DNA of 40,476 bases. Source: Calothrix sp. HK-06. GTDB taxonomy: Bacteria > Cyanobacteriota > Cyanobacteriia > Cyanobacteriales > Nostocaceae. Both the position numbers and the translations under genes were made by a program. The stretch spans positions 1 to 40,476 of the forward strand of contig NZ_MRCD01000082.1 of assembly GCF_001904745.1 (NCBI RefSeq), read 5' to 3'. The notes under the pieces were generated by a model. That model searched no databases, was not told the origin of the DNA, and worked only from the letters and a program-made list of their open reading frames with translations. Below, in pieces: positions 1 through 40,476 of this stretch; the first letter of the stretch is position 1; the number at the start of each line of letters is the position of its first letter.

Positions 1-39
1 TTTCTGTAAACTCAGTGCTACTGGGCTATTTTGTGCTGC

Positions 40-177
40 TTAGTCTAAACTCCAGTCATAAGGAATATCAGCATATCGTTGGGCATTAGAAGAAGTTTCA
101 AGAATAAAAAACTTTTGGTCTATAACTAAGTATTCTGTGTAGTACGGGACTAATAATTTTTCTAAAATTGTGTTCAT
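40..177 (-). pseudogene. 45-codon remnant resembling the N-terminus of a larger signalling protein
   Basis: An ATG at 175-177 (complement) opens a 45-codon frame that ends in TAA at 40-42. It begins MNTILEKLLVPYYTEYLVID and continues with FFILETSSNAQRYAD. This pattern (a short leader, then EYLVID, then a sensor-like ILE-S--QR-AD stretch) reminds me of the extreme N-terminus of longer cyanobacterial PAS/cyclase-type proteins, but I cannot name the family securely. A weak AGGA lies about 11 bases upstream of the ATG. The frame stops where a full-length protein would continue, so I read it as a truncated leftover. It could also be a genuine small protein. Confidence 0.35.
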
Positions 178-198
178 TATAATTAAAATCCTGGAAAT

Positions 199-234
199 AG
201 AAACCAGGTTTCTTTGTTGATAAAAACCCGGTTT
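199..234. repeat. Shortened copy of the GAAACC-GGTTTC dispersed palindrome
   Basis: A perfect 15-base inverted repeat around agaaaccaggtttct (199-213) is followed by ttgttgata and a second arm, aaacccggttt (224-234). Compared with the fuller copies at 2303, 10138 and 28038, the middle (ttattacaatatatcga in those) is largely missing, so this looks like an internally deleted copy in reverse orientation. Confidence 0.6.
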
Positions 235-567
235 ATGCAGCGTAAGTCCTAAAATTAATTAACTTTTTTAGTTCTTATCAGTCTTATCATTTTTATGTGT
301 TTTTTTTAACAGGCATATACATACAGTACCAAATCCCTAACTCCATTCATACAGTATAAATACTAGTTTACTTACAAACATTATATTACATAATTTCTAA
401 GTGAAACTAGAAATTATACGTAAAAGTCTTTACTCGCTAGACCAGTATGCTTTAATTTGGAAAAAATATAAACAAATACTTGCTATTAGTAAAAAAATGA
501 TACAATTTAATTATGTTTCAGCAGTAGGCGCCGTCAATTATTTTTAATTTAGCATAATGTAATAATG

Positions 568-608
568 TAGAGACGTTACATGTAATGTCTCCACGTGTAA
601 CGTCTCTA
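568..608. repeat. Inverted repeat with GAGACGTTACATG arms
   Basis: tagagacgttacatg at 568-582 is mirrored by cgtgtaacgtctcta at 594-608, and the left half is itself palindromic (gacgttacatgtaatgtc). A single-unit relative lies at 24381-24404. It can fold into a hairpin in DNA or RNA. No gene overlaps it. Confidence 0.65.
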
Positions 609-1309
609 AGTTCATTTTAATACTTTCTATTTTTGATATTGAGTTGTTTATGACAGCCAATATAATTTATTACACAATTCCGATTGCTTTGACAATATTG
701 ATATATAAACAGTCACATGTGTATTTGACTTAGTATAGAGCAAATACAATAGTTAACATTATTTTTTGTTAACCCTGAAAGCAAATTTATTTTAGGGTTG
801 TGACAATTGTGTGTCAATTGAATGTCAACAGATATATCTATAATTATCGGTAATTTATTAATCTAAAAAAAATCTTAAATTAAGTATTTGGGTATACATT
901 AGTGTTCATTAGTACACATTTTTTTTCGTGATAACTGTCACTAAGGCATCTGTAAAACCCTCTGCGAACTGGTATACTGGCTTGAATAACCAAAATATAG
1001 CCGCCTCCACTTATGTTGCATTTATATCATCATGTAAATAAATGTAACAAGCTGCTACGATGGCTTCGACAAATATGGTACAAAGTAAATGTAAAAATAA
1101 AGAAAATCTTAAGTTTTTCTACAAATCTAAAAAATCGGTTTATGAAATGGCTCAAAACAGGGTGGTCAATGGTGGCTTAGTACTGTAGGTGCTGACAAAT
1201 AGTACAAATGTTGTAAGTAATTAGTTGTAAGTAATCATAAATGAAATTCTGTTTAGTTCCCTGTTTGAGAACATCAAAATTAAGGACTCAGTGAAGAGTA
1301 AAGGTAGCT

Positions 1310-2296: not shown

Positions 2297-2302
2297 AATT
2301 CT

Positions 2303-3295: not shown

Positions 3296-3303
3296 TTAAT
3301 GTG

Positions 3304-3412: not shown

Positions 3413-4192
3413 ATGCGTATTAAGCCAATTCATTTATTTCTTGTAGCAGTCGCGATACTATTCAGTTTCGGCGCCAATGTCAGCGCGCGACAGCCAAGAA
3501 TAAATTCGGTAGCAACAATTATTAGTGATATGAAGCCACCACATGATGCAGCACCGCGTGGAGTGCCCAAACATTACAGTTGGGCAAAAGGGCCAGAATT
3601 AGGGATGGGTAACAATCCCAAAAACTTTAAAGCAATGATTGCATGGGGGCAACTATATGAAGCAGAACAAGGGAACCCCGCAAAAAATACGCGCGTTCAG
3701 ATACGAAACGTCAAGTCTTATGTTCTTAGCAAAAGAGATAGAAAATGGCGCCTATTAAAGAGTTCAGTTGGAGTAGACGGTGCAGCATACCGTGAAGACT
3801 TTGCAGGAGATGCCAATAAATCACCAGACGTTCGTACTGAAAAAGATGGCAGCGTATCAACAAAAGCGGGAGGAGGATATAACTATCACTTCTGGTCAAA
3901 AAACGGTAGAAGCAATATAAACCCCAACGACATAGCTGGTATATTCACCACCTGTCAAGCCAGATTAGTAATAGACAACGCAAAAAAACCAGACGATAGA
4001 AGCAAAGCCAAATACGTGCTTAACATGGGTGGAGATTACTGGCTAGACCTCGCGGCGCCGTGGGATAATTTTAAAACCAACGGTGGCATAGGAATGGGGA
4101 GGTTTAAATACGTAAAAACAAACTGGCAAGCATTCAACATGACAACAGTGCCAGAATCTGAACTTCGCCGCAACCCTCCACCAATCGAGTAA
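3413..4192 (+). CDS. Secreted protein of unknown function, tandem paralogue 2
   Basis: A 259-residue paralogue of the preceding gene, about 70% identical by eye with no large gaps. The signal peptide (MRIKPIHLFLVAVAILFSFG, with likely cleavage after VSA near residue 24) is diverged in sequence but preserved in type. The mature core is conserved: GVPKHYSWA, WGQLYEAEQGNP, GAAYREDFAG, GGGYNYHFW, GIFTT, GGDYWLDL, FNMTT and the terminal NPPPIE. Copy 2 is more basic, with many Lys/Arg replacing neutral residues (for example SYVLSKRDRKWRLLKSS). That suggests different binding behaviour after duplication. The 117-base gap to copy 1 contains a hairpin, and the DUF4336 gene starts 49 bases downstream, so the three may be co-transcribed. 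Function unknown. Confidence 0.85.
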   Translation: MRIKPIHLFLVAVAILFSFGANVSARQPRINSVATIISDMKPPHDAAPRGVPKHYSWAKGPELGMGNNPKNFKAMIAWGQLYEAEQGNPAKNTRVQIRNVKSYVLSKRDRKWRLLKSSVGVDGAAYREDFAGDANKSPDVRTEKDGSVSTKAGGGYNYHFWSKNGRSNINPNDIAGIFTTCQARLVIDNAKKPDDRSKAKYVLNMGGDYWLDLAAPWDNFKTNGGIGMGRFKYVKTNWQAFNMTTVPESELRRNPPPIE

Positions 4193-4241
4193 TCAAATAT
4201 AATATTATTGGGAAATTAAAACTGCTTAAACTAACCTAAAC

Positions 4242-5432
4242 GTGCAGAGTAAACTCGCTAATCCGCAAGACTTTTCCTGGTCATTTTGGTACACCCTGCC
4301 GATATATCCATTTGGCAGGCGCCAAACCATTCGTAAAGAAGTTGTAAAAGATACAGTTTGGACGTTCGACCAAATCCAGGGAATTTTTTATGTGGTCGTT
4401 CCCGTGAGAATGACGGTAATTAAGCTTAGTGAGGGTGGTTTATTAGTTTATGCACCCGTGGCGCCAACACGGGAATGCATCCGATTAATTACTGAATTAG
4501 TAGAAGAACACGGTGATGTAAAATACATAATATTACCAACAATATCAGGGTTAGAACATAAAGTATTTGTTGGCCCATTTGCGAGACGGTTTCCATCGTC
4601 ACAAGTATTTATCGCACCAGGTCAATGGAGTTTTCCGGTTAATTTACCGTTGAGTTGGTTAGGTTTACCAGCAAAGCGTACTCACGTTTTACCAGAAGAT
4701 AGTAAACAGGTGCCGTTTGCCTCAGAGTTTGATTATGCCATACTTGGGCCAATAGAACTTGGGCCGGGTCGATTTGCAGAAGTAGCATTTTTCCATAAGC
4801 TTTCAAATACACTTTTAGTAACCGACTCTATCGTCTCAATACCATCGGAACCACCTGCCATAGTGCAGTTAGACTCATATCCATTATTATTTCACGCAAG
4901 AGATAAAGCATTTGATATAGTACCAGACACAGCAGAAAACCGTCGTAAAGGATGGCAACGCATAGCACTATTTGCCTTTTACTTTAGTCCAAGTGTTTTA
5001 GAAGTTCCCAAATGGGGTCAAGTATTTAAAGACGCATTCAAAACCAGCAACCGTTCCAAAAAAGCATATTTTGGTTTATACCCTTTCGAGTGGAGACCTG
5101 ACTGGCAAGGTTGCTTCGACGCTTTATATGCGAATGGTCGCATCTTTGTAGCACCCATTTTACAAGCTCTGATTCTAAATCGGGCGCCTGTGGAAACACT
5201 CGAATGGGCAGATAAAGTTGCAAAATGGGACTTTAAAAGCATAATACCTTGTCACTTAGAGGCGCCAGTCACCACTACACCCCAGCAATTTAGACAAGCA
5301 TTTGCATTTCTAGAGAAACAACCAACCACAACTAGTGCCATATTACCCGAAGCAGACTTTGAAGTACTGCGCGTAATCGATAATAACTTAGAAAAATTCG
5401 GAATAGTACCACCCGCAAAAGAAAAAATTTAA
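4242..5432 (+). CDS. DUF4336 domain-containing protein
   Basis: A 396-residue protein matching the DUF4336 family known from cyanobacteria, algae and plants. The fold is thought to resemble metallo-beta-lactamases, but the usual HxHxDH metal motif is not obvious here. Telling stretches are the N-terminal SWSFWYTLPIYPFGRRQTIR, VRMTVIKLSEGGLLVYAPVA near residues 55-75, and IIPCHLEAPV near residue 335. No signal peptide or transmembrane helix is apparent. The start is GTG at 4242; no in-frame ATG fits the conserved N-terminus better, and the ribosome-binding site is weak. Position after the secreted pair suggests possible co-transcription. No biochemical role is established to my knowledge, so I leave function open. 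Confidence 0.85.
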   Translation: MQSKLANPQDFSWSFWYTLPIYPFGRRQTIRKEVVKDTVWTFDQIQGIFYVVVPVRMTVIKLSEGGLLVYAPVAPTRECIRLITELVEEHGDVKYIILPTISGLEHKVFVGPFARRFPSSQVFIAPGQWSFPVNLPLSWLGLPAKRTHVLPEDSKQVPFASEFDYAILGPIELGPGRFAEVAFFHKLSNTLLVTDSIVSIPSEPPAIVQLDSYPLLFHARDKAFDIVPDTAENRRKGWQRIALFAFYFSPSVLEVPKWGQVFKDAFKTSNRSKKAYFGLYPFEWRPDWQGCFDALYANGRIFVAPILQALILNRAPVETLEWADKVAKWDFKSIIPCHLEAPVTTTPQQFRQAFAFLEKQPTTTSAILPEADFEVLRVIDNNLEKFGIVPPAKEKI

Positions 5433-5465
5433 AGTTATGAAAATGTGTTAGATTAATCTAGCTTA

Positions 5466-5577
5466 TTCGGTTCAAAAAGGCACCAGCCATAAGAGGAAAC
5501 GGGGAAAGCTCGGTGAAATTCCAGCACTGTCCCGCAACTGTAAGCTATAAATGTAGCAAGTCAGAATGCCCGCCGAA
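5466..5577 (+). promoter_or_regulatory. Cobalamin (B12) riboswitch
   Basis: The sequence carries the conserved order of an adenosylcobalamin-type aptamer: a ggcacc segment, taagaggaaac, a ggtgaaattccagcactg core, cccgcaactgtaa, and a B12-box-like agtcagaatgcccgcc near 5559-5574. A closing stem pairs ttcgg (5466-5470) with ccgaa (5573-5577). The downstream ATG is 35 bases away and its GAGGT ribosome-binding site is at 5603-5607. I see no T-run terminator, so translational control is more likely than attenuation. tgtagc (5552-5557) can pair with gctaca (5591-5596), a possible switching helix. A perfect 12-base palindrome (tagattaatcta, 5449-5460) sits just upstream. Cobalamin would be expected to repress the DUF1636 gene. 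Confidence 0.92.
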
Positions 5578-5611
5578 AGCAGTAAAAATAGCTACAATCT
5601 ACGAGGTATAG

Positions 5612-6152: not shown

Positions 6153-6484
6153 TTATACAAAGCATTGCACCCCTAAATTATATAGCTTTATGCAAATAAC
6201 AACCAGTCGAATTTCCACTCTAGGGTATGAAGCCATAATTTTACCCAACCTTAAAGCATCACTAGGAAAACCATTAGGTAAAGGCGCCCTATCATTAGCC
6301 ATTCGCATCTGTGCATTTAAATCTTTCATCAAAGCTTGACGTGCCTCTATCCCCTCCTTATACGTTTGGCTCAACTTATCCTTACCACCATAAAGTTGAT
6401 TAAATGCACTACTAACTTGCGGCTTATCTAAAGGTAAGCGATTAGCGGCGCCAACTATCCCAAAACATGTTATACTACAATATG
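6153..6484 (-). pseudogene. Decayed fragment of an unidentified gene
   Basis: On the minus strand a reading frame is open from about 6484 down to a TAA at 6153-6155. Its middle looks like real protein: AANRLPLDKPQVSSAFNQLY, then a charged helical stretch (KLSQTYKEGIEARQALMKDL) and APLPNGFPSDALRLGKI. There is no convincing start codon. The part after MASYP turns into hydrophobic, low-information sequence, as if the frame ran into unrelated DNA. I read this as an internal piece of a lost gene and do not recognise the family. A shorter gene model could begin at TTG 6374, but the conserved-looking sequence extends further upstream than that. Confidence 0.4.
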
Positions 6485-6653: not shown

Positions 6654-7709
6654 ATGCATTTGAATTCTTTAGGCTGGAGTAACTTTTTTAATTCCAGCTT
6701 TGAACTTTTTCGTCTACAAGGATTTACTGTAGGTAGAGTAGCAATTGAGCATAGAAATACTTACGTTGTTCTAACAGAACAGGGAGAAGTATCAGCAGAA
6801 ATAACAGGTAAAATGCGACATCAAGCTTTGCAACGTCAAGACTTTCCAGCAGTAGGAGATTGGGTAGTTATTCGTACACGAGACTCAGAACAAGCAACCA
6901 TTCACGAAATATTGCCAAGATTTAGCAAATTTTCTCGTAAAACCGTTGGGGGCAAAACCGACGAACAAATAGTTGCAGCGAACGTTGATACTGTTTTTTT
7001 AGTATCCGGGTTGGATGAAGACTTTAATATTAGAAGAATCGAACGTTATTTAATTCTTGCTTGGGAAAGTGGCGCCAATCCGGTAATAGTTTTAAATAAA
7101 GCAGATTTGTGCAATAACCTTGAACAGCGTTTAGTAGAAATAGAATCTGTTGCTCTGGGTGTACCAATACTTGTTTTAAGTGCGGCACATAATCAAGGAA
7201 TTAATGCTTTAAAAACCTATTTACAACCAGGTAAAACTGTTGCACTGCTTGGGTCTTCGGGTGTGGGTAAATCTACCATTACTAATCAACTAATGGGTGA
7301 AACAGTTCAAGCTGTACAATCTGTACGTGAGGATGATAGTAGAGGAAGGCACACGACAACTCATCGAGAGTTAATATTACTACCAACAGGAGGGGTAGTT
7401 ATAGATACTCCTGGAATGCGGGAAATACAGTTGTGGACAGGTGATGAAGGTTTGCAGTCTACATTTGCTGACATTGAAGTTATCGCGCAACAGTGCCGCT
7501 TCCGTAATTGTCAACACGCTCATGAACCTGGTTGTGCTGTACAAGAAGCATTGCAGTCAGGTAAACTTGAGGCGCCGAGGTTTTTAAATTATCAAAAGTT
7601 ACAAAGGGAGCTTGGTTATTTGGAGCGTAAACAAGACCAAAGCTCATATTTGGCTGAGAAGGAACGGTGGAAGAAAATTACTAAATCTATGCGAAAGCAT
7701 AAAAAGTGA
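6654..7709 (+). CDS. rsgA: Ribosome small-subunit-dependent GTPase A
   Basis: RsgA (YjeQ/EngC) is a circularly permuted GTPase that binds the 30S subunit late in assembly and, in well-studied bacteria, helps release RbfA and proof the decoding centre. The 351 residues show an N-terminal OB-fold (about 25-95), then the permuted G-domain with NKAD (148-151), GSSGVGKST (200-208) and DTPG (251-254). The C-terminal zinc site is C281, C286, H288 and C294. The basic tail KSMRKHKK suits rRNA binding. ATG at 6654 has GAGG 8-11 bases upstream; no better start is seen. All motifs are intact, so it should be active. The gene appears monocistronic, with a structured leader and a palindromic repeat just after it. 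Confidence 0.96.
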
Positions 7710-7804: not shown

Positions 7805-8380
7805 TTAACCTTTAACGAATACGTGTGTTAGACCATTAACTTGGTTATCCATTAAGCCATCAACTGTGGCGATGAATTCATGTTCTAAATATGGTTTAGT
7901 CATGTAAGCTGTGGCGCGATGTAGTGTTTTTGCTTTACTAACTCCGCCTTTTTTAAATTCAGTATAAAAGTGTACCATTAATTGTAATGTTGGGATATTA
8001 CGTAATTTCCCATCGAGGGCAAAAACTAGAGTTTTGATGTCTTGACTTTCTTTGAGATATGGTTCAAGGGGTTTGATTAACCAGTTATAGATTTTTTCTG
8101 ATTTTGTTACTGTCACCCGACTAATAATATTCTCTACTCCAACAGGGTTACTAAAATAGGCGCCGCGTTTATCACCAATATTAAACTCCTAAAAACTATG
8201 GAAAAGATTTATACCACGAATGGCACCACCATTTATCTCGTCTACGTCAGGTTTTATTTGTGAACTTTCGGTGCCAAGGGTATTATCTGGGATTATTGAG
8301 GGGGTTTGAGCGGCGCCTCTATTTGGACAAGCAAGTGAACCAGTTAAAATTAGAATAATTATTACTCTCAATTTCTGCAC
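7805..8380 (-). pseudogene. Decayed haemagglutinin/TPS-domain and CHAT-domain gene with in-frame amber codon
   Basis: From ATG at 8380 the frame encodes a signal peptide (ending near GAAQ) and then IIPDNTLGTESS and GGAIRGINLFHSF. These are hallmarks of the haemagglutination-activity (two-partner-secretion) domain. A TAG at 8189-8191 interrupts it where homologues as I remember them have Gln (LFHSF-Q-EFN). The same frame resumes at once with EFNIGDKRGAYFSNPVGVEN, still TPS. It then jumps after ISRVTV to KIYNWLIKPLEPYL and IKTLVFALDGKLRNIP, the signature of a CHAT caspase-like domain, and shortly after to FYTEFKKGGVSKAKTL, which resembles a later CHAT helix. Most of both domains is missing. I infer deletions fused a TPS gene to a CHAT gene, which are often neighbours in cyanobacteria, plus a nonsense mutation. 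The CHAT catalytic His/Cys are absent. Confidence 0.65.
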
Positions 8381-8596: not shown

Positions 8597-9568
8597 TTAT
8601 TTTTGGTTTTGAAAGTTATCGATTGCGGCTCTAAGATTGCCTTGATGTTGTAATAATAATTGTTCTCCTGCTTGTTTGTCTAAGTTAGTTGAGTGCATTA
8701 ATAGTGCAAGTTTTACCCATTTGCCGCTATTTTCAAGTAGTGAGTTTGCTGCGTCGCGACCCAAACCTGTAAGGTCTTGAAGTATGCGTAATGCACGGTC
8801 ACGCAGTTTGTTGTTTGTGACTGCGACATCCACCATGCGGTTGCCGTAAACTTTACCTAGACGCACCATTGTACCCGTTGACAGAATATTTAAGGCTAGT
8901 TTTGTGACTGTACCTGCTTTTAAACGGGTTGACCCTGCTAGTATTTCGGGCCCAGTTAATAAGCGAATGTTGATGTCAACGTCTGCTTTTACTTGCTCTG
9001 CTGGTACACAAGATATAAATATTGTTGTGGCGCCGCGCGTTTTTGCTGCTTTCAATGCTCCGTGAACATACGGTGTTGTGCCACCTGCTGTGATACCAAC
9101 TACTGCGTCGTTTTTACTTACATTACGTTCGACCATTGCAGTTTCTCCATCTTCTGCTCGGTCTTCTAAATCTTCTGAACTACGAACTAAAGCGCCATTG
9201 CCACCTGCTATTATCCCTTGTACGAGTTCTGGAGGTGTACAAAAAGTTGGTGGACATTCTGCTGCGTCTAATACTCCCAACCTTCCTGAAGTTCCTGCAC
9301 CAATGTAAAATAGGCGCCCACCTAAACTTAAACCTGCTGCAATACGTTCAATTGCTTCTGCTAGTTCGTGTTTGGCTGCTGCAACTGCGTCAATTGCGCG
9401 TTGGTCTTCTGCATTAAATAACTCTACTAACTCAAGCGAACTTAGCTGGTCTAAGTTTAAACTGTTGGGGTTGACTTGCTCCGTCAAAAGATGCCCACGT
9501 TCTTGTAAAAAATTTATCATGTATTTATTGCTAGTAGTTTGGTATGGGTCGGGAAGTGAGAAATACAC
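8597..9568 (-). CDS. murQ: N-acetylmuramic acid 6-phosphate etherase
   Basis: MurQ cleaves the D-lactyl ether of MurNAc-6-phosphate to give GlcNAc-6-phosphate and D-lactate, in cytoplasmic recycling of cell-wall sugars. The 323-residue protein has the family start LQERGHLLTEQVNPNS, the SIS-domain signature AGTSGRLGVLDAAE-PPTF (about 91-109) and the ITAGGTTPYV phosphosugar loop. The C-terminal helical segment with LDKQAGEQLL is also present. The start at 9568 gives a 16-residue extension; the internal ATG at 9520 (MINFLQERGHLL) matches family length better and may be the real start. The gene lies 15 bases after the DUF3110 gene on the same strand and is probably co-transcribed with it. No MurNAc-6-P transporter or kinase is nearby. 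Confidence 0.95.
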   Translation of the reverse strand: MYFSLPDPYQTTSNKYMINFLQERGHLLTEQVNPNSLNLDQLSSLELVELFNAEDQRAIDAVAAAKHELAEAIERIAAGLSLGGRLFYIGAGTSGRLGVLDAAECPPTFCTPPELVQGIIAGGNGALVRSSEDLEDRAEDGETAMVERNVSKNDAVVGITAGGTTPYVHGALKAAKTRGATTIFISCVPAEQVKADVDINIRLLTGPEILAGSTRLKAGTVTKLALNILSTGTMVRLGKVYGNRMVDVAVTNNKLRDRALRILQDLTGLGRDAANSLLENSGKWVKLALLMHSTNLDKQAGEQLLLQHQGNLRAAIDNFQNQK

Positions 9569-9583: not shown

Positions 9584-9991
9584 TCAAATCAATCCTTCTA
9601 GTCGGCGCCTAATGCTATCTAGTTCGCTATCGGCAATATCACTTGCATTCGATTGTTGTTGATTGAAAGCATCAGTATTTTTACTTGAGTTATCTGCATT
9701 GGGATCCCAGTCGGTTTCTTCCACATTTAGCTCAGGAGGAATTGCTAAAGCGCCATTTGAAGGCACAATTTCATAGTCGTAATCCATCTCAGAGCAAAAT
9801 CCTTCCACTTCTTGAGAATCAATAGGCTCAACGGTGGGTACAGGAAAATCCTGAGCCTCAAGTAGCATCGCAAAACGTTCGGCATCGTCGCTTGACTCGA
9901 ACATTAGCACCTTGTTACGGTCGCCAACTCGAATCGTGTGGATACCCTCGTCATCAGTCCGAGCATTAAAAAGTAACACGAAGACACGCAT
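9584..9991 (-). CDS. DUF3110 domain-containing protein
   Basis: This 135-residue protein begins MRVFVLLFNARTDDEGIHTI, the hallmark of DUF3110, a small family of cyanobacteria and plastid-bearing organisms with no known function. The conserved domain covers about residues 1-85: a beta-rich start, a helix DDAERFAMLLEAQDFP, then EGFCSEMDYDYEIV. The rest is an acidic, Asn/Gln/Ser-rich low-complexity tail (DWDPNADNSSKNTD) ending in a short helix IRRRLEGLI. It is cytosolic, with no signal or membrane segment. murQ follows 15 bases later. Upstream lies a 467-base divergent gap shared with tamB. Confidence 0.88.
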   Translation of the reverse strand: MRVFVLLFNARTDDEGIHTIRVGDRNKVLMFESSDDAERFAMLLEAQDFPVPTVEPIDSQEVEGFCSEMDYDYEIVPSNGALAIPPELNVEETDWDPNADNSSKNTDAFNQQQSNASDIADSELDSIRRRLEGLI

Positions 9992-22310: not shown

Positions 22311-22742
22311 GGGAGGTTCGTTGTCTACTAGCCAATATAAGCTTAGAGTTTCCACGACCCTTTTTAGTGCTTTTAGACCGTTTGGTTTAACTAAGTACGA
22401 ATTGGCGCCTAACTCATAAGCTAAGTTTACATCAGCGGGTTCACGCGAAGAAGTAAAAATGACTACAGGTAAAAGATTTAGGCAAGCCTGTTGTCTGAGC
22501 CAAGCGAGGATTTCGTGTCCTGAACGGCAGGGTAATTTTAAGTCGAGTAAAATCAATTTAGGTATGGGAAAACGTTGACGGTCTGCATATTCTCCATCAC
22601 CGCTCAGGTACGCAATTGCACTATCTCCGTCATCAATAATTTGCAGCGAAACATTTATATTTGCCTTTTGAAACGCGCGCTGGGTCAAATAAATTTCGTT
22701 TGGGTCATCTTCCACGAGTAAAATGGTATGTATTGCTGTCAT
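22296..22742 (-). CDS. Rcp1-like single-domain response regulator
   Basis: 148 residues, a single receiver of the Rcp1 (cyanobacterial phytochrome partner) type. It has the acidic pair EDD (11-13), phosphorylatable D67 in LILLDLKLP, the Thr/Ser switch in FTSS, and Lys in YLVKPN. The insert YLSGDGEYADRQRFPIPK is typical of the subfamily. With no output domain, it presumably shuttles phosphate between kinases. The start codon lies two bases after the stop of the upstream kinase, so translation is probably coupled. The C-terminus (EPPVRVG) is encoded partly by a repeat that also provides the stop codon. Confidence 0.93.
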   Translation of the reverse strand: MTAIHTILLVEDDPNEIYLTQRAFQKANINVSLQIIDDGDSAIAYLSGDGEYADRQRFPIPKLILLDLKLPCRSGHEILAWLRQQACLNLLPVVIFTSSREPADVNLAYELGANSYLVKPNGLKALKRVVETLSLYWLVDNEPPVRVG

Positions 22743-24977: not shown

Positions 24978-25517
24978 ATGCTTGGCACAGAAATTTTAGA
25001 CCAATATGCCACAGGTAAAAGAGATTTTACTGGCGTCGATTTAAGTGAAGCAGAACTCGAAAACGCCAATCTCACAGGTATAATATTAGACAATGCGTTA
25101 TTAGACGGCGCCAATTTGAACGGGGCAAACTTAAGTCAGGCAAGTTTACAAAATGCTGACTTGAATGGAGCAAATTTAACAAACGCTGACTTGACTGGTG
25201 CCAATTTAACAGGAGCAATTTTAGAAGGGGCAATTTTAGAGGGTGCAATATTAGATAGCGCGAACCTTAGTCAGTCAGAACTGACGGTAGCTAAGATGAT
25301 AGAAGCTGATTTAACGCAAGCTGACTTGAGCGAAGCGAATTTAAATGCAGCCAACCTTGACAAAGCTAATTTAACAGGAGTTGACGCACATCAAGCTGAT
25401 TTAAGTAGTGCTAACTTGGCAAGTGCTGATTTACATGAGGCAAATCTAAGTGGAGCTAAATTAGACGGTGCTAATTTAGAAGGAACGATTTTAGATGAAA
25501 ATACTAGTATAGATTAA
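24978..25517 (+). CDS. Pentapeptide-repeat protein
   Basis: 179 residues from ATG 24978; a TTG at 24966 adds four residues without support. After a short leader (MLGTEILDQYATGKRDFTGV) the protein is almost wholly A(D/N)L-x-x pentapeptides, about 30 units, for example GANLNGANLSQASLQNADLN. Such repeats fold as a right-handed quadrilateral beta-helix and usually mediate protein contacts; a few relatives mimic DNA and inhibit gyrase, but nothing shows that here. It has no signal peptide, so a cytosolic location is likely. The stop codon is three bases before the next ATG, indicating co-translation with the amylo-alpha-1,6-glucosidase gene. No clear ribosome-binding site is visible. Confidence 0.92.
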   Translation: MLGTEILDQYATGKRDFTGVDLSEAELENANLTGIILDNALLDGANLNGANLSQASLQNADLNGANLTNADLTGANLTGAILEGAILEGAILDSANLSQSELTVAKMIEADLTQADLSEANLNAANLDKANLTGVDAHQADLSSANLASADLHEANLSGAKLDGANLEGTILDENTSID

Positions 25518-30729: not shown

Positions 30730-30782
30730 GCATTTGATTTTTGACTCACTTCGGCGCCTAAATAATATATTAAGAATACGTG

Positions 30783-31231: not shown

Positions 31232-34024
31232 TTACACCATTTCTGATTGCTGCATAGCAGGTTGAGGTTGAGGTTGGAACATGAAGAGCGAGTATACAAC
31301 GTCTCTACGGATATTTGTCATCATATCCAAGAATAATTCGTAACCCTCACTCTTATATTCAATCAATGGGTCTTTCTGTCCATAACCTCGTAACCCTACT
31401 GACTCACGTAAAGCATCCATACCTTGTAAATGCTCACGCCACAAAGTATCAATACGCTGCAAAATAAAGAAGCGTTCGGCTTGACGCATTAAACCAGCTT
31501 GAATTTGGTCGATTTGCGCCTCTTTCATATCATAAGCAATACGAACTTGCTCATGAAGAAAAGCTTTAATTTCGCCCACCGACATGTCTACCAACTGTTC
31601 CGATTGTAAATCAGCTAGTAAGTAAACAAACTCTTTAACTTTTTCAACTAATTTATCGAGTTCCCATTCTTCTGAAGGCAAGTCAATATTAATGTAGTAG
31701 TCAACGATGTCATCCATCGTTTTCTCAGCATATTTAATTACTTGCTCTTTCAGGTCTTGCCCTTCTAATACCCGGCGCCGTTCCGCGTAAATAGCACGAC
31801 GTTGGTTATTCATTACTTCGTCGTACTCAAATACTTGTTTACGAATGTCGTAATAATATGTTTCGACTTTCTTTTGGGCGCCTTCCAAACTGCGAGTTAA
31901 CATACCCGACTCAATAGGCATGTCTTCTTCGACGTTGAACATGTTCATCAAGTTAGCAACTTTCTCTCCCCCAAAAATTCGCATCAAGTTATCCTCTAAA
32001 CTGAGGAAAAATCTGGCGCTTCCAGGGTCTCCTTGCCGTCCTGCACGCCCCCGTAATTGATTATCGATACGGCGCGATTCGTGACGTTCAGTGCCAATTA
32101 CGTGCAACCCACCTAACTCAACAACTTTATTATGTTCAGCTTTGGTAAACTCTTCATATTCGTGTCGAATACGATTATAAGCATCACGCAATTTTTGAAT
32201 TACTGGGTCATCGGTAGGTGCCTTTTCTGCGGCAACAGCAATTCTTTCTTCTGCCTCAAGTTCGGGTAAAGAGCGCTCACCATACTCACGTGCAGCAAAC
32301 TCTACCGCTTGCTTTAATAAATTCTCAGTCTCTTTTCCAATTTGAGTAGGGAAAATTTCTGGAGAAGCACGCCATGTTTTAACCTTTTTACCAGGTACAA
32401 AACCTTGACCACCACCACCATGACCGCCAGGTAAACCACTAGCACGTTGAATACCAAAAGTATCTTCGTCTTCTGGTTGAACAAGACGTGGCATAAAGTA
32501 TTCGCGCACCTTCAAACGTGCCATATACTCAGCATTACCACCCAAAATAATATCAGTTCCACGACCTGCCATGTTAGTCGCAATAGTCACAGCGCCACTT
32601 CGTCCTGCTTGCGCGACAATTTCCGCTTCACGTTCTACGTTTTCTGGACGCGCATTGAGTAACTCGTGGGGTATCTCCATTTGCCGTAACAGTTGACTAA
32701 GATACTCAGATTTTTCAACACTAGTAGTACCTACTAATACAGGTCTACCAAGTTCGTGCATTTCAGCACATTCCCTTGCAATGGCAGTCCATTTACCATT
32801 TTCAGTCTTAAAGACCATATCCGATAAATCTTTCCGCATCCGAACCCGGTTTGTGGGTATTATTGTAACTTCCAGCTTGTAGATTTTTTCAAACTCAGCT
32901 TCTTCTGTTTTCGCTGTACCCGTCATACCGCCTAATTTAGGGTATAAAAGAAACAGGTTTTGATATGTAATTGTCGCAAGAGTTTGGGTTTCTGGCTGAA
33001 TTTCTAAGTGTTCTTTTGCCTCAATTGCTTGGTGTAAACCATCACTCCAACGGCGCCCAGGCATAACACGACCTGTAAATTCATCAACGATAACCACTTC
33101 ACCACCACGGGTAATATAGTTAACGTCCTTTAAAAATAATTCTTTAGCTTTAATAGCATTAAATACAAAATGTGCCCAAGGGTCTTCTGGGTCAAATAAG
33201 TCAGTAACTTCAAGTAATCTTTCAGCTTCTGCAAATCCTTCATCAGTTAACAATACGTTACGTGCTTTCTCATCAACTTCATAATGCTCATCTTTTTTGA
33301 GTGCATTAGCAATTTCTGCGGCTCTGAGATATTTTTCAGTTGGTCTTTCAACCTGCCCCGATATAATTAACGGTGTACGTGCTTCATCAACTAAAATCGA
33401 GTCAACTTCGTCGATAACGCAGTAATTGAAGGGACGCTGCACAACATCCTTGATATCTGTCGCCATATTATCGCGCAGATAGTCAAAACCGATTTCACTA
33501 TTCGTTACATAAGTAATATCGCAGTCGTAATTCTTCTTACGTTCCTGCGGTGTCATACTTTGTTGAATAAGACCTACACTCAAGCCCAAGAACCGATGTA
33601 CCTGACCCATCCACTCAGCATCTCGACGAGCTAGGTAGTCGTTAACGGTTATTACGTGTACACCTTTACCAGTTAGAGCATTTAAATAACTTGGCAAAGT
33701 CGCCACAAGGGTTTTACCCTCACCAGTCTTCATCTCGGCGATTTGCCCTGTATGTAGAATAATACCACCCAACATTTGCACATCAAAGTGGCGCAACCCT
33801 AACACACGCCGTCCGGCTTCTCGAACAGTTGCAAAAGCTTCTGGCAAAATATCGTCAAGAGTTTCACCCTTTGCCAAACGCTGTCTAAACTCTACTGTTT
33901 TCCCCTTCAACTGCTCATCTGAAAGGGACTTAATTTCTTCCTCAAAGAGATTAATATCAGTGATGTAAGGTTGGTATTTTTTAAGTTTACGAGCGTTGGG
34001 GTCGCCCAACAAGGTTTTTAGCAT
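31232..34024 (-). CDS. secA: Preprotein translocase ATPase subunit SecA
   Basis: 930 residues, the usual cyanobacterial length. SecA drives proteins through SecYEG at plasma and thylakoid membranes. Walker A is GEGKT (101-105) and the DEVD box is at 205-208 ([15 protein letters not shown]). The pre-protein cross-linking region, [12 protein letters not shown]-type motif and [19 protein letters not shown] are intact. Near residue 535 there is the glycine-rich insert (GGHGGGGQG) seen in cyanobacterial and plastid SecA. The C-terminal zinc-binding CxC motif of enterobacteria is absent and the protein ends in a Gln/Pro tail, also normal here. ATG 34024 gives the canonical [17 protein letters not shown] start. 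Appears monocistronic. Confidence 0.98.
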
Positions 34025-34252: not shown

Positions 34253-34804
34253 TTATTGCCACTCCTTGCTTAAACTGCGAAAGTCATAATTATTTGCTCT
34301 CGGATGACATGTTACACAACTACTAACTTGTGGAGGGTTTGGTAGTTTTACTTGAGGATGTAAAGCTTTGAAATAACGTGAGCTATTTAAACGGTACGGT
34401 ATTTGCTCATCAGCGAGTATTGGACGTGAGAAAGTAGAAAGGTATCGCCACACTAACATACGGGGTGGGTCTACTAGCGGTTGAAGTTGTGAACCGTAAT
34501 GTTGACTATCTTCAAGAAGGTTTTTCCAAGTTTGGGTAGGGAAAACTGAGGGAGGCAAAGCAATATGACAAGTGGAGCAATTTTCTAGGTAAAGCTCCTG
34601 TCCAAGTTTAAATTGTGCAGGTACTACATCTACCGTACCAATTGATGGCATTATATCATCATTTGGAGTGGCGCCGTTTACACTTGTAGCAAAAGCGAGC
34701 AACCATCCCATCGCAAGACTCCAAGCCAAAATAATTAAAAGTAAACCAACAGGGTTACGTTTTAGCCTTTTTTCCTTACTTTTGCGTTTAACCAAATTAG
34801 ACAT
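34253..34804 (-). CDS. Membrane-anchored dihaem cytochrome c
   Basis: 183 residues. A basic N-terminus (KRKSKEKRLKRNP) precedes one membrane helix (about 18-40, GLLLIILAWSLAMGWLLAF), which is either an anchor or an uncleaved signal. The remainder faces the periplasm or thylakoid lumen and has two haem-attachment motifs, CSTCH (76-80) and CVTCH (163-167). This matches the small dihaem cytochrome c family of cyanobacteria, whose electron-transfer role is not established. WRYLSTFSRPILADEQIPYR lies between the haem sites. The fixed spacing of the two sites and typical length suggest an intact gene. It lies 229 bases upstream of secA on the same strand, with no evident coupling. Confidence 0.85.
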   Translation of the reverse strand: MSNLVKRKSKEKRLKRNPVGLLLIILAWSLAMGWLLAFATSVNGATPNDDIMPSIGTVDVVPAQFKLGQELYLENCSTCHIALPPSVFPTQTWKNLLEDSQHYGSQLQPLVDPPRMLVWRYLSTFSRPILADEQIPYRLNSSRYFKALHPQVKLPNPPQVSSCVTCHPRANNYDFRSLSKEWQ

Positions 34805-35262
34805 TTGATACTTTTATTATATGGTACAAAAAACCTATTAGCAGCAATGATAGCTTTTGAATTGACTAAAATATAAACTGCATACACGCAATATATATTC
34901 AGAGTCTAATATTAGCTGTTTTGTTGCCGTTACATAGTCTTTAAGGTAACTACTGATGTCTTTGATTGAATTGTGGGGTGTGTGGCAACGGATGTAACGG
35001 ATGTGTGATTTTGAATAATAATATCTAATTTTTGACTTGAACCAAACGAATAGTACTTAACGGCGCCAGCTTAAAAGTAAATCAACCAAGCAGTACTACT
35101 GGTTAATCCTAAACCAGTAGTACCCATACCACAACCCCTCTCCCCATCAAGGCATCGGCGCCAATCGTAAGGGCGGGTTAATCCAAATTAAACATAGTAT
35201 TAAAATATCTCTAGCCCCCCAACACCCCGACACCCCCGACACCCCACACCTGCCACTCTCAA
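34805..35262. other. Intergenic region between dihaem cytochrome and moxR
   Basis: It holds gcaacggatgtaacggatg (34985-35003, related to 16160), a perfect 12-bp hairpin (35093-35123) and two GGCGCC sites. A half copy of the GGGCGGGTT element lies near 35170, and a C-rich run of ccccgacac-type repeats at about 35212-35252. No gene is seen. Confidence 0.5.
35093..35123. repeat. Perfect 12-bp hairpin
   Basis: gtactactggtt (35093-35104) and aaccagtagtac (35112-35123) pair perfectly with a seven-base loop (aatccta). It lies downstream of moxR on the minus strand. The sequence after it in that direction is not a T-run, so it is a weak terminator candidate. It could also be a protein-binding site for the cytochrome gene. 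Confidence 0.55.
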
Positions 35263-36171
35263 TCAAGGTATAGGCACCGACCGTAGTATACGCTCCATAA
35301 CACTCTTAGCTCGGCGCCCACCTACTGGTATCAAACGATGACACAAAACATGAGGCGCCAATAATTTAATGTCATCGGGAATTGCATAATCACGTCCTAG
35401 TAAGAAAGCAAGAGCCTGTGTAGCACGTTGCAAAGCTACAGTACCACGGGGACTGACACCAAGGGTAATTTCTTCATCTTGCCGTGTCGCTCGCACTAGG
35501 TCAAGAATATATTGTTGTAATGAAGTATCTATTTTAACGCTTGCACATAAACGACGTAACTGTGCAAGCTCTTCCAAAGTAATACAAGGCTCTAATGCGT
35601 CAAATTTTACACCATCTATTTGACGTTGCAACATTTGAAGCTCCTCGTTTTCTGATGGATAACCCAGACTTAATGACAGCATAAACCTATCCATCTGAGC
35701 TTCTGGAAGCGGAAAAGTACCTTGATACTCAATAGGGTTCTGGGTAGCAATAACAAAAAATGGTAAGGGAACCGGACGCGAAACACCATCAACAGTTACT
35801 TGATGTTCTTCCATTACTTCCAACAATGCTGACTGAGTTCTGGGTGTAGCTCGATTTATTTCGTCAGTCAGTAAAACATTAGCAAAAACAGGCCCAGATA
35901 AAAAACTAAATTCGCCGCTTTTGGGATTCCAAATATTAGTGCCTGTTATATCGGTCGGTAAAAGGTCTGGAGTACATTGTAATCTTTGAAACCTACCGTC
36001 AATAGAACGAGCTAGCGATTTTGCTAATAAGGTTTTACCAACACCTGGGACATCTTCTAGTAGCGCATGACCACCTCCAAGCAAGGCAACCAGTACCAAA
36101 CGGATAGATGTAGTTTTGCCAACTATTGTTTTTGCTAAGTTTTGTGTCAATGCGTCAATTTTTTCTCTCAT
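35263..36171 (-). CDS. MoxR-family AAA+ ATPase
   Basis: 302 residues from ATG 36171; the frame continues to GTG 36189, but relatives start MREKIDALTQNL. Walker A is GVGKT (43-47), Walker B LLTDEIN (about 100-106) and sensor 1 FFVIATQNP. An arginine-finger segment PEAQMDRFMLS and the C-terminal lid ITLGVSPRG follow. MoxR ATPases act as chaperones that load cofactors or help assemble complexes, often beside DUF58 and von Willebrand-type genes. None is adjacent here, so it is an orphan copy and the client is unknown. The C-terminus ends ILRSVPIP. Directly upstream on the same strand is ribF, 111 bases away. Confidence 0.93.
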   Translation of the reverse strand: MREKIDALTQNLAKTIVGKTTSIRLVLVALLGGGHALLEDVPGVGKTLLAKSLARSIDGRFQRLQCTPDLLPTDITGTNIWNPKSGEFSFLSGPVFANVLLTDEINRATPRTQSALLEVMEEHQVTVDGVSRPVPLPFFVIATQNPIEYQGTFPLPEAQMDRFMLSLSLGYPSENEELQMLQRQIDGVKFDALEPCITLEELAQLRRLCASVKIDTSLQQYILDLVRATRQDEEITLGVSPRGTVALQRATQALAFLLGRDYAIPDDIKLLAPHVLCHRLIPVGGRRAKSVMERILRSVPIP

Positions 36172-37314: not shown

Positions 37315-37451
37315 TTTTTGGTACTGGGATAAGCGTGTTTATGAGCGATTCACTTCAAAAGACTAACTGTCTAACGACCATTAACTTTTAAAGCTTCTCA
37401 ATCACCAATCTAATCTAAAATCTTCTATCACTCCGGTTATGTATGTCTATT

Positions 37452-38342
37452 TTAAATATGCCTAACAGGAAAAGTTTCCGACAGTGGGATTGAAACAGGC
37501 ACCTCAAGCACCATTCCTTCTTTTGCCATAATAGCGCCAGAAAACTTTTGTGCAGCTTGTTTGCCAACCGAATCCAAAAAATCATCATCGTGTGCTGGGT
37601 CATGATGAAAAATCACCAAAGTTTTGACCTTAGCAGCTTGGGCAATTTTTACTGCTTCTTGCCATGTCGAGTGACCCCAGCCAATTTTAGGAAATTTTGG
37701 AGAATGGTATTCCTCATCTGTATAAGTTGAATCGTAAATTAGAATATCGGCGTTACGTGCTAACCAAAGAACATTTTCGTCGAGATGGTCTGCAAAATGT
37801 TCTGTATCGGTGATATAAGCTGCGGCGCCACCACACCAGTTAACCCGATAGCCAACAGCTTCACCAGGGTGATTGAGCGGTGCCGTTTCAACGACAATAT
37901 CATCAATTTTAATTGGCTCTCCTGGCGCCACATCATAAAAATCCAAATCAGCCTGCATAATTTGTAAAGGTACAGGGAAATTAGGATGCAGCATTTGGTC
38001 ATTCAGACGTTGCTCAACGGTGGAACCATCAGGTGCAATGGCGCCATATATACAAAAATGGTTTCCTCTCACAAATCCAGGAGTGAAAAATGGAAACCCT
38101 TGCATGTGGTCCCAATGCGAGTGAGTAAAAAAGATATGCGCGGTCGTTGGCATTTGGCGCAATAACGATTGCCCCAAAACATGTAACCCTGTACCACCAT
38201 CGAAAATTAAACGCTTACCGCCCACTTGCATCTCAACGCAAGGGGTATTACCGCCATAACGCACGGTGTTCGATCCCGGACAGGGGATGCTGCCGCGAAC
38301 CCCCCAAAAATGCACTTTAAAATGTTTTTCTATCCTAGACAT
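37452..38342 (-). CDS. MBL-fold metal-dependent hydrolase
   Basis: 296 residues of the metallo-beta-lactamase superfamily. The early FWGVRGSIPCPGSNTVRYGG is typical of a cyclic-phosphodiesterase/RNase Z-like branch. The metal motif THSHWDH (73-79, HxHxDH type) follows, then Asp in ITDTEH, further His in PLNHPGEAVGYR, and VIFHHDPAHDDD late in the protein. The substrate is unknown; relatives are annotated only generally, and cyclic phosphodiesters are one option. It is cytosolic, complete and starts at ATG 38342. It lies 137 bases upstream of ribF on the same strand with no overlap; function and operon linkage are unclear. Confidence 0.88.
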   Translation of the reverse strand: MSRIEKHFKVHFWGVRGSIPCPGSNTVRYGGNTPCVEMQVGGKRLIFDGGTGLHVLGQSLLRQMPTTAHIFFTHSHWDHMQGFPFFTPGFVRGNHFCIYGAIAPDGSTVEQRLNDQMLHPNFPVPLQIMQADLDFYDVAPGEPIKIDDIVVETAPLNHPGEAVGYRVNWCGGAAAYITDTEHFADHLDENVLWLARNADILIYDSTYTDEEYHSPKFPKIGWGHSTWQEAVKIAQAAKVKTLVIFHHDPAHDDDFLDSVGKQAAQKFSGAIMAKEGMVLEVPVSIPLSETFPVRHI

Positions 38343-38613
38343 GAGTTAGTCAAAGCTTGATACTGAGTGGGCGATTTAAAACGTGACTGGTTTTGTTTAG
38401 TTTATACGCTATATAAAACCAAATGGCAGCAAGCGTGAATTCACTGGTAATGCTATATACCTAATTTCATTTTCCTTTCCAAAGTTTTTAAACATAGAAA
38501 AGTACTGCCGTTACTCTTGTACAGTTGTAAGGAATCATGCGCGTAAGCTTGATTTGTGAACTGCTCCTACTTTATAGCCTATATTTTGTCATTGTTGCAT
38601 TGACTGACGGTAA

Positions 38614-39441
38614 CTACTCCGTTTGTTTACCTGCTTGCCACTCGCCACCGATTCCCCACTCCCGCTTGCATAGCTCAGTCGCTGCCTTAGAATAAGTAAG
38701 ATTATACTGTAAAGGGGTAATACTTATGTAGTTATCACGTATAACATGCACATCTATTGGTATATTTTGAGGCAAATTTAAGCCAATAGCAGGCTCGATA
38801 TCTTCTTGAACTTCCCCGGTAAGCCAGTAATAAGTTTTACCACGTGGGTCAGTACGCTTGTCAAAAACATCAATGTAACGCCGCACTCCTTGCCGTGTAA
38901 CTACGGCGCCCCTTATTTCTTCCCACTTGACAGCAGGAACATTTACATTTAGCAGCATCAAGTCAGGCAAAGGATTTTTTGCCAGTGTAGCTATCAAAAT
39001 AGAAGCAAAATCTGCTGCGGGCTGAAATTCTCGAATTGTATGACTTGTCAAGCTAAAAGCAATGCTTGGAATACCTTCGATTAAACCTTCCATAGCAGCC
39101 GAAACCGTCCCAGAGTATAAAATTTCTGTACCAACATTGGCGCCTTGATTAATTCCCGACACAACAAAATCAGGCGCCGAATCAAGCAAAGCCCACAGCG
39201 CTAACTTGACACAATCCGAAGGAGTTCCATCACAAGCCCAAGCTTTGATGTTGGGATGAAATAATGACTCAACTATTTCGGCACGAATGGGTTGATGCAA
39301 AGTTAGTCCATGTCCGGTTGCCGAACGCTCCCGGTCTGGACACACCACAGTTACCTCATGACCAGACAGAGCTAAAGTGTTAGCTAGAGTCCGGATACCT
39401 AAAGCAGAAACCCCATCATCATTGCTAATTAGCAGTTTCAT
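38614..39441 (-). CDS. surE: 5'/3'-nucleotidase SurE
   Basis: 275 residues. SurE removes phosphate from nucleoside 5'- or 3'-monophosphates and is linked to stress survival. The N-terminal metal site [10 protein letters not shown] has D8 and D9; [18 protein letters not shown] and the second metal loop [10 protein letters not shown] are all present. The fold is Rossmann-like and the length is normal for cyanobacteria. ATG 39441 is unambiguous. The gene is divergent from pheS across 288 AT-rich bases that include the direct repeat ttgatttaatttgatttaat (39533-39552). This gene pair order is one I would expect in cyanobacteria but cannot confirm here. No partner is on the same strand within 270 bases downstream. 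Confidence 0.96.
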
Positions 39442-39729
39442 TTAGTTAGTAGTGTTGCTATAAACAATTAATAAACAATATCATTAACGATATCGTCGTT
39501 GAACATTCGTGCCGAGTCAGGGACATATAAAACTTGATTTAATTTGATTTAATTTAAGAATTATAGTTTCTTTTTGCGAATCTAACTAATTACAAATACT
39601 TTTCAACTGTATAAAAAAATTAATAAATAACTAATAAAATACATACTACACTATTCTGTCACTATGACATCAGTTCAGGGTAGATGTTGTAAACTCAGTA
39701 TTGCCCAAGCACGTATTAACAATCAAGAG

Positions 39730-40476
39730 ATGAGCAACCCTGAAAACGACTTAGAAGCTCAACTAAATGCACTGCGTACTGATGGAGAAAACGCAATTCG
39801 TAGCGCTGACACCCTTGACCGACTAGAAGAGTTGCGCGTTAACTATCTAGGCAAAAAAGGTCAATTGTCTGTGCTTTTAGGCAGCATGGGCAAACTGAGC
39901 GCTGAGGAACGTCCCAAAATAGGCGCCGCAGCCAACACTGTAAAGGAAGCTTTACAATCTAGCCTTGATAAACAACGCACTGCATTAGAAGCAGCAAAAA
40001 TACAGGCACAACTTCAAGCGGAAACGTTAGATGTAACAATGCCAGGTATTTACCAGCGTCCTCAAGGTCGTATTCATCCCCTCAACGGTATTATCGACCG
40101 TGCCTTAGATATATTTGTCGGTATGGGGTATACCGTTGCACAGGGTCCAGAAATGGAAACTGACTATTATAATTTCGAGGCACTAAACACACCTGCGGAC
40201 CATCCAGCACGCGACATGCAGGATACATTTTACTTACCTGACGGAAATTTACTCAGGACACAAACCTCGTGCGTACAAATACGTTACATGGAAGCTGAAG
40301 AACCACCAATTCGCATTGTGGCGCCAGGGCGAGTGTATCGTAAAGATGATGTAGACGCTACCCACTCAGCAGTCTTTCATCAAATTGAACTCTTAGCTAT
40401 CGACGAAGGATTAACTTTTACCGACCTCAAAGGCACAATAAAAGAATTCTTAACTTCAATATTTGGCGACCTACCC
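39730..40476 (+). CDS. pheS: Phenylalanyl-tRNA synthetase alpha subunit (3' end beyond the window)
   Basis: The frame is open to the window edge, so only the first 249 residues are seen. PheS with PheT charges tRNA-Phe. The N-terminal coiled coil (about 5-85; [19 protein letters not shown]) contacts tRNA. The class II catalytic core has [37 protein letters not shown], the motif-2-like [16 protein letters not shown] and [18 protein letters not shown] use ATG 39730 ([15 protein letters not shown]) because family members begin close to this point and CAAGAG precedes it. An in-frame ATG at 39664 would add 22 residues with no family match. Motifs are intact. Transcription diverges from surE. Confidence 0.95.

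Follow-up and report, generated by a model that had tools for sequence, protein, structure and literature searches.

GGCGCC as a genus-wide alternate to the cyanobacterial palindrome HIP1, with a candidate HindV-like methyltransferase

The hexamer GGCGCC is scattered in thousands of copies through the genomes of the cyanobacterial genus to which Calothrix sp. HK-06 belongs. We analyze a stretch of 40,476 bases from this strain (contig NZ_MRCD01000082.1, positions 1 to 40,476; hereafter the window), in which an earlier note, made from the letters alone, had counted about 69 copies of GGCGCC and proposed that the word serves this lineage as an iterated palindrome. The proposal holds up: the word occurs at a density like that of the highly iterated palindrome HIP1 (GCGATCGC), in genes and in gaps, HIP1 is near absent, the pattern is genus-wide, and the sites are conserved in place. 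The evidence supports GGCGCC as an alternate highly iterated palindrome (HIP) that replaced HIP1 by descent, in the whole genus and throughout its genomes. The fuller account, which we consider probable, is that of an alternate HIP borne by descent across the genus, carrying the mark of a HindV-like methyltransferase and held at sites that are weakly maintained.

HIP1 itself was reportedly described in 1995 by Robinson et al. A GGCGCC HIP is already published for a congener of the window's strain, Calothrix PCC 7103, where Elhai 2015 (PMC4390886) described the word as an "alternate HIP." The excerpts of that paper on which we draw predict GRCGYC specificity for 2 methyltransferases of PCC 7103, add a 19-kb fragment of strain D253 with GGCGCC as alternate HIP, and present exceptional HIPs as sporadic and not clade-wide, an occurrence that forms 1 of Elhai's 2 arguments for selection on HIP1 itself. 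They propose a ratchet of mismatch repair directed by G-meC and note as unknown which base is methylated, a point that the model needs. In the open-licence literature we found no other paper on a cyanobacterial GGCGCC HIP, subscription papers being mostly outside the scope of the search.

Abundance of GGCGCC in the window, the genome, and the genus

GGCGCC occurs exactly 69 times in the window. The G+C content is 39.2%, where the note had estimated about 39%, and its expectation of 2 to 3 copies agrees with 2.29 from base composition and 3.4 from a first-order Markov chain. Four of the 6 site positions that it quoted are exact; the other 2, 10671 and 29512, lie one base low and should read 10672 and 29513. 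Neither GCGATCGC nor CGATCG is present in the window, as the note had seen. Across the genome of Calothrix sp. HK-06, GGCGCC reaches 15,449 copies in 9.99 Mb on 243 contigs, or one per 647 bp, which is far over expectation. HIP1 has 88 copies in the same genome against 66 for the reversed word, so it is near background, and the repeat found here is not HIP1 proper.

Genes were represented by predicted open reading frames (ORFs) of at least 150 aa, and synonymous codons were shuffled with the protein and the pooled codon use preserved. The ORFs of the window contain 57 GGCGCC sites, while 200 shuffles averaged 2.9 and never exceeded 7; codon use accounts for about 3 of the 57, and dinucleotide and codon nulls leave most sites unexplained. 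Six stretches from congeners gave the same outcome, with 259 sites against 14.6 in one example. A maximal-order Markov model predicts 43.8 copies in the window, a figure so high because the model is fed the counts of GGCGC and GCGCC, which are largely fragments of GGCGCC. An origin in composition, codon use, or repeats alone can appeal to frame 0, in which Gly-Ala accounts for 24 of the 57 coding sites, yet it is almost certainly wrong in view of the shuffles, of sites outside ORFs that are dense (1.14 per kb, against 1.91 per kb inside) and conserved too, and of the 210 relatives without the repeat.

The excess extends to the genus. In 840 kb of genus DNA, GGCGCC occurs 1,327 times against 72 expected to first order (18-fold), the top ratio among all hexamers with more than 100 copies, and the enrichment is 15- to 21-fold at 0.04 to 0.25 Mb per genome. 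CCGCGG, which has the letters of GGCGCC backwards, is found 6 times in the whole genome of Calothrix sp. HK-06. This word is itself avoided, with 0 copies in the window and 0 in 3 HIP1 relatives sampled, and the claim of over-representation therefore leans on the other nulls.

A survey of the family covered 217 genomes in 56 genera, 7 from the window's genus and 210 others. Beside the window's genome (G000), the genus is represented by Calothrix PCC 7716 (G065), NIES-4105 (G062), PCC 7103 (G061), and FI2-JRJ7 (G064), by the metagenome-assembled genome C42_A2020_038 (G063), and by Dulcicalothrix desertica PCC 7102 (G060); 4 of the 7 are named cultured strains. All 7 carry GGCGCC in 7,475 to 20,380 copies, one per 0.6 to 0.9 kb, and the other 210 have 0 to 1,053 copies each. 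Conversely, HIP1 is abundant in nearly all other family genomes, the few low ones including G182 (30) and G194 (535). Mapping the word on relatives, as the note had asked, thus finds the repeat in every one of the 7 genus genomes and in none of the 210 from the rest of the family. This contradicts the point in Elhai 2015 that alternate HIPs are sporadic and not found in clades; the failure of that claim in this genus also counts against the ratchet. G194, a genome of 10.7 Mb, has no obvious substitute palindrome in the 77 kb sampled.

GGCGCC has the features by which HIPs are recognized. It is a GC-rich palindrome far above other words (69 against 3.4 in the window), its density of 1,150 to 1,711 copies per Mb in all 7 genomes falls within the approximately 1,000 to 2,000 of the class, and it occurs, as alternate HIPs do, only where HIP1 is low: 31 to 163 copies per genome in the genus, and 3 in 266 kb of G284, a genome of another family to which we return below.

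Other short words are also skewed. In the window, GATC (4 copies against 88 to 144 expected) and GGCC (8 against 60 to 75) are avoided; across genus DNA, GATC stands at 0.05 to 0.30 of expectation. GTGCAC, CGTACG, GTCGAC, TTCGAA, GCATGC, and CCGCGG are nearly gone, with 0 to 2 copies each in the 840 kb. Another palindrome, CGCGCG, is also in excess throughout the genus (3.6- to 9.9-fold in all 7 genomes, highest in G063 and G062), and is at 0- to 0.6-fold in the 3 HIP1 relatives sampled.

Retention and replacement of sites

Conservation was read from blastn blocks of at least 300 bases, with pairs of genomes counted in both directions and the counts accordingly not independent. Between PCC 7716 and NIES-4105, which are 88% identical, 126 of 147 GGCGCC sites are kept, against 0.516 of other hexamers and 0.477 of G+C-rich ones. 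Where other hexamers are retained at 52%, GGCGCC is retained at 86% to 88%. Over 10 directed pairs, the kept fraction is 0.76 to 0.93 for GGCGCC and 0.49 to 0.75 for other hexamers. The difference persists with the amino acids fixed: in far pairs, 336 of 371 Gly-Ala pairs written as GGCGCC are retained, compared with 80 of 158 written with other codons. Gly-Ala written as GGTGCC survives in none of 27 cases in far pairs and in 4 of 34 in near pairs. Glycine GGC is kept at 0.916 inside sites and 0.494 outside, and alanine GCC at 0.963 and 0.570. Sites that lie outside ORFs of 80 aa are kept in 34 of 45 cases in far pairs, against 0.455, and in 61 of 76 in near pairs, against 0.677. Window sites are kept at 82% to 94% in G060, G065, and G064, compared with 71% to 81% for other hexamers, percentages from which the 17 of the 69 sites without an aligned relative are excluded.

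The changes that do occur have a distinct pattern. Directed pairs together yield 174 replaced sites; a single base was changed in 120, and in 78 of the 120 a transition of the central CpG has given GGCACC or GGTGCC. This transition affects 8.8% of sites against 10.6% of other CpGs in near pairs, and 7.5% against 18.9% in far pairs. The flanking bases within sites change at 0.020 per base in near pairs and 0.037 in far pairs, against 0.059 and 0.109 around other CpGs, and GGCGCC sites change about 3 times more slowly than their surroundings. The central C is thus more prone to change than the other bases of the site, which points to methylation at the third base (C3) as 5-methylcytosine (5mC); central changes are not accumulating, which points to losses that are removed or reversed. 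The scaled strength of this force, as the ln-ratio to one-step words, is 2.8 to 4.7, and it comes from selection or from biased repair, the two being alike in these data.

Elhai's ratchet is a version of the latter, in which GGCGCC would be a function-free by-product of a hypothetical mismatch repair directed by G-meC, spreading until copies lie about 1 kb apart (PMC4390886, in excerpt). Several observations suit it. The one-step words are depleted, as if converted, to 0.17 to 0.54 of expectation for 7 of 9 (the exceptions are GTCGCC at 0.89 and GGTGCC at 1.12); the replacement spectrum puts the methyl group at C3, as the model needs; and the lowest bin of pair distances is that of 800 to 1000 bp (353 against 419). 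Spacing is otherwise near-Poisson from 0.1 to 5 kb, with bins at 0.84 to 1.15 of expectation and clear repulsion only below about 100 bp (74 gaps under 60 bp, where 151 are expected and 500 placements gave no fewer than 121). Regular spacing was looked for and not found, the coefficient of variation of GGCGCC gaps being 0.82 to 1.06 (0.94 for HIP1 gaps in 200 kb of G001), and there is little sign of saturation at 1 kb. Repair over 1 kb should moreover shield neighboring bases equally, yet the rate of change at flanking bases within sites is about a third of that around other CpGs. We judge the ratchet unlikely as it stands; a variant with the repair bias limited to the site itself would still fit.

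Sites could also be restored from outside. If GGCGCC were a signal for DNA uptake or conjugation, with marked DNA preferred and recombination with kin restoring sites (molecular drive), the density, the positions in genes and gaps, and the restored sites would look identical. To our knowledge, however, known uptake words are neither palindromic nor linked to a methyltransferase, and a signal of this kind leaves the swap of 2 methyltransferases, described below, unexplained; we hold it to be quite improbable. In its favor, excerpts of PMC6604393 report that conjugation falls by approximately 50% when the m5CGATCG enzyme is missing, and cite higher transformation with premethylated DNA.

The individual sites of the window, given without strand, range from unchanged to mostly replaced. 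Six of the 28 sites aligned in at least 5 relatives are unchanged in all: those at 9604-9609, 10672-10677, 10808-10813, 11880-11885, and 23376-23381 are kept in 6 of 6 relatives, and that at 26849-26854 in 5 of 5. Five of 6 relatives keep the sites at 9029-9034, 9313-9318, 12478-12483 (GGTGCC in the remaining one), 13316-13321, and 29513-29518, and 4 of 6 keep those at 10968-10973, 11644-11649, 13771-13776, 14222-14227, 14527-14532, 18964-18969 (GGCACC in 2), and 23109-23114 (GGTGCC in 2). Retention falls to 3 of 6 at 12171-12176, 15330-15335, and 29677-29682, to 2 of 6 at 11455-11460, and to 1 of 6 at 25107-25112, where 4 relatives have GGTGCC. With 5 relatives aligned, 4 keep the sites at 21332-21337, 26109-26114, 27143-27148, and 27387-27392, and 2 keep that at 26463-26468. 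With 4 aligned, the sites at 16853-16858, 17255-17260, 17407-17412, 18622-18627, and 22404-22409 are kept in all, those at 16686-16691 and 27595-27600 in 3, and that at 18379-18384 in 1, with GGTGCC in 2.

Toward the end of the window, the sites at 31774-31779, 31877-31882, and 33052-33057 are kept in both of 2 aligned relatives, and those at 30753-30758, 34670-34675, 35062-35067, 35313-35318, 35354-35359, 37824-37829, 37924-37929, 38040-38045, 38905-38910, 39139-39144, 39173-39178, 39922-39927, and 40320-40325 in the only one aligned. The sites without an aligned relative are those at 527-532, 2124-2129, 2850-2855, 3470-3475, 3747-3752, 4054-4059, 4318-4323, 4460-4465, 5183-5188, 5261-5266, 6283-6288, 6447-6452, 7071-7076, 7571-7576, 8159-8164, 8312-8317, and 35157-35162. 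Apart from these sites, the window contains a cobalamin riboswitch at 5451-5591 on the forward strand (Rfam RF00174, 45.1 bits).

Candidate methyltransferases in the genus and in a second lineage

The genome of Calothrix sp. HK-06 has 10 matches to the profile PF00145. One of them, an intact protein of 330 aa (L003, contig C60), shares 53% identity with a plasmid-borne gene that carries the annotation hindVM. We take the specificity of HindV to be GRCGYC. A HindV-like C5 enzyme, of predicted specificity, is encoded in 7 of 7 genus genomes; the enzymes of the 6 congeners are 80% to 84% identical to L003, and the PCC 7716 copy has a C5 methyltransferase domain (PF00145, 2e-64; TIGR00675, 3.3e-47). 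In 6 of 6 congeners the gene is flanked by a RuBisCO-like gene on one side and an SLH/GHL10 gene on the other, both of which are missing at the 13 loci from other genera that were compared. In a tree of 35 enzymes, the genus enzymes form one clade (99/99) of 6 rows, the C42 row having been dropped for a stop in the translated stretch. The shared place and the single clade identify the enzyme as inherited in this lineage.

The note had suggested a search for an orphan methyltransferase, and this yielded a candidate: the HindV-like C5 enzyme, its activity predicted, has no conserved partner gene beside it in the genus. Neither locus neighbor, the same 2 in all 6 congeners, is an endonuclease by Pfam (judged in PCC 7716); no search was made for an endonuclease elsewhere in the genome.

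PCC 7103 has 2 further genes upstream of the RuBisCO-like one, the first encoding a C5 methyltransferase of 661 aa and the other, of 435 aa, matching nothing in Pfam or NCBIfam (L014, L015); together they are possibly a separate modification system. ORFs related to this pair are found in PCC 7102 and in the window's genome (contig C29) and not in the other 4, and relatives of the 661-aa enzyme sit elsewhere in G062 and G063.

A second lineage shows a similar combination. G284, from another family and with 54% G+C, has 4,834 copies of CGGCGCCG, against 0 to 32 in 49 other genomes of its family. In 266 kb, it has 644 copies of GGCGCC (167 expected), 320 of CGGCGCCG (14 expected), and 3 of HIP1 (6 expected). 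Three of its 4 congeners have HIP1 in 34 to 47 copies in 43 to 60 kb; the fourth, G230, has neither word in excess in the 60 kb sampled, and a relative with an excess of neither word beside a genome with a new HIP fits the "window of opportunity" that the ratchet foresees (Elhai 2015, in excerpt). Among these 5 congeners, only G284 has the HindV-like enzyme. The G284 enzyme groups with a Pleurocapsa one (97/94), a 98/91 branch away from the genus enzymes and surrounded by proteobacterial and other cyanobacterial enzymes, and because it stands on a separate branch the 2 acquisitions look independent.

One further candidate was considered in a survey of 386 genomes across the phylum, based on raw GGCGCC counts, by which high-GC genomes are rich in the word regardless. 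G420, from another family, has 2,493 GGCGCC against 38 CCGCGG, which suggested a third case. This was rejected, because at 49% G+C the word does not exceed expectation there (79 copies in 216 kb, with 70 expected) and HIP1 is present (78 against 2.3). CCGCGG alone therefore makes a poor control. The raw counts of G262 in this survey are 6,677 GGCGCC against 1,346 CCGCGG.

The genus also differs from its family in what its genomes do not encode. Labels such as DmtC or CGATCG enzyme are presumptive here; we infer that a second C5 family is the CGATCG enzyme from how widespread it is in HIP1 genomes. With the best 9 first-look candidates per genome compared, this candidate is found in at least 198 of the 210 genomes from the rest of the family and in none of the 7 from the genus. 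As a check, 70 stretches with C5 matches from the 7 genus genomes were compared with it, and the best match is 34% to 36% identical, against 54% to 69% in 7 other carriers. G194 retains the candidate CGATCG methyltransferase despite its low HIP1. A further C5 type, 33% to 36% identical to the candidate, is encoded by L271-L275 (in G065, G062, G060, G061, and G064).

Weighing the account and comparison with known palindromes

How might an enzyme and a palindrome be tied together? The HindV/HgiDI-like enzyme would methylate the third base, giving GG-m5C-GCC, and with it G-m5C-G, the same local mark as on HIP1. The cell may then rely on such marks at intervals of roughly 1 kb, probably to recognize strand or "self" in repair or replication. 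Loss of a mark would be slightly harmful or be repaired back, with a weak scaled force of about 3 to 5 per site, and sites would persist while deamination of 5mC keeps turning some into GGTGCC or GGCACC. More tentatively, and as a possibility to which we do not fully commit, HIPs may be interchangeable carriers of a single G-m5C-G signal, present about once per kb and, in cyanobacteria, actively maintained genome-wide and passed between orphan methyltransferases. On that same tentative reading, 2 lineages may have recruited a HindV-type enzyme after the loss of HIP1 and rebuilt thousands of GGCGCC or CGGCGCCG.

Several observations weigh against an account built on this enzyme and on maintained sites. 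The GRCGYC specificity is a prediction from 53% identity to a gene annotated hindVM, together with what we recall of HindV. Calothrix sp. HK-06 itself has the inherited copy as 2 pieces, at contig ends (C29:51-269 and C207:36-290; L007, L008); these adjoin ORFs resembling the RuBisCO-like and SLH/GHL10 neighbors, and the intact paralogue L003 stands in tandem with a truncated third copy on contig C60. Relatives of the enzyme also occur without the repeat. At least 55 of the 210 other family genomes carry one (matches at E 1e-60) and have only 0 to 277 GGCGCC each, and 21 of the 49 others in the family of G284 carry one (E 1e-40), likewise without the repeat. Of 34 window sites aligned in PCC 7103, 20 survive, a fraction of 0.588 where other hexamers reach 0.718. 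By parsimony, losses outnumber gains in all but one of 10 comparisons, by 14 to 0 in one case; the exception has 4 of each. A further C5 type (L004) is common to all 7 genus genomes, and 12 relatives without the candidate CGATCG enzyme (among the best 9 candidates per genome) keep HIP1 in 1,285 to 7,016 copies.

Some of these observations narrow the account. Over both families, the first scored by GGCGCC and that of G284 by CGGCGCCG, at least 84 genomes carry the enzyme, 8 with a repeat and 76 without, and 0 of 183 non-carriers have one; carriers in the window's family may be undercounted, as the best 10 first-look candidates per genome were scored. The HindV-like enzyme therefore looks necessary and not sufficient, and its presence as the whole cause was rejected (76 of 84 carriers are without the repeat). 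The genus counts as one event, and there are 2 events altogether. Loss of the candidate CGATCG enzyme was likewise rejected as the whole cause of HIP1 loss, given the 12 relatives that keep HIP1. The L004 type is also found in 4 of 4 other family members looked at, at 68% to 72% identity; it does not track the swap and is unlikely as its cause. The excess of losses means that the system may be off equilibrium, with slow decay possible. In PCC 7103, where 14 of 34 sites are changed in the region matching window 9029-29677, 9 of them to GGTGCC or GGCACC, it is as if maintenance were weaker; a few changes may be gains in the window's genome.

Two explanations that invoke restriction fit less well. 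Restriction-modification pressure on the methyltransferase's own target would agree with the at least 55 carriers outside the genus that have few GGCGCC. A Type II system should deplete its own target, however, and here the target is enriched 15- to 21-fold; nor is there a conserved partner gene beside the enzyme (the comparison did not extend to unlinked endonucleases), and we consider such pressure very improbable. Restriction of GATC, the scenario in the excerpts of Elhai 2015, fits the genus (GATC at 0.05 to 0.30 of expectation) and not G284 (1.02), and was rejected as a general cause.

A natural swap of palindrome and methyltransferase, genus-wide and repeated elsewhere, separates the word from its role. 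If the role is that of a methylation mark, species on both sides of the swap invite comparison, and the enzyme could be deleted or replaced by another. The replacement pattern names the base of interest, C3 of GGCGCC, and the question of what HIPs are for becomes more testable.

Among known systems, one comparison is with HIP1 and its GATC and CGATCG methyltransferases. In Synechocystis, m5C lies at the first C of CGATCG (PMC6604393, in excerpt), and the same source credits statistics favoring selection on HIP1 to Xu et al. 2018. Both palindromes are GC-rich, occur once per approximately 0.6 to 1.1 kb in genes and gaps with near-Poisson spacing, and are tied to a C5 enzyme, with the marked C within G-C-G (predicted in the case of GGCGCC). 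They differ in the word and in the lineage of the enzyme, and GGCGCC is without the GATC core, GATC being depleted in the window. G284 resembles the genus in that CGGCGCCG contains GGCGCC, HIP1 is not in excess, and the enzyme is of the same family; it differs in favoring the octamer (320 of 644 GGCGCC lie within CGGCGCCG), in GATC that is not depleted (1,001 against 978), and in GGCGTC/GACGCC that is raised too (358 against 173). The closest likeness is PCC 7103, a strain of the window's genus, with the same word at a similar density, low HIP1 and GATC, and methyltransferases of predicted GRCGYC specificity. As presented in the excerpts of Elhai 2015, that case consists of a single exceptional strain and the D253 fragment; the present work finds the repeat in all 7 genus genomes and adds one inherited enzyme locus, sites conserved where they stand, and a further origin outside the family. 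What is new is thus the genus-wide inheritance, the exchange of methyltransferases, the in-place conservation of sites, and the independent second case.

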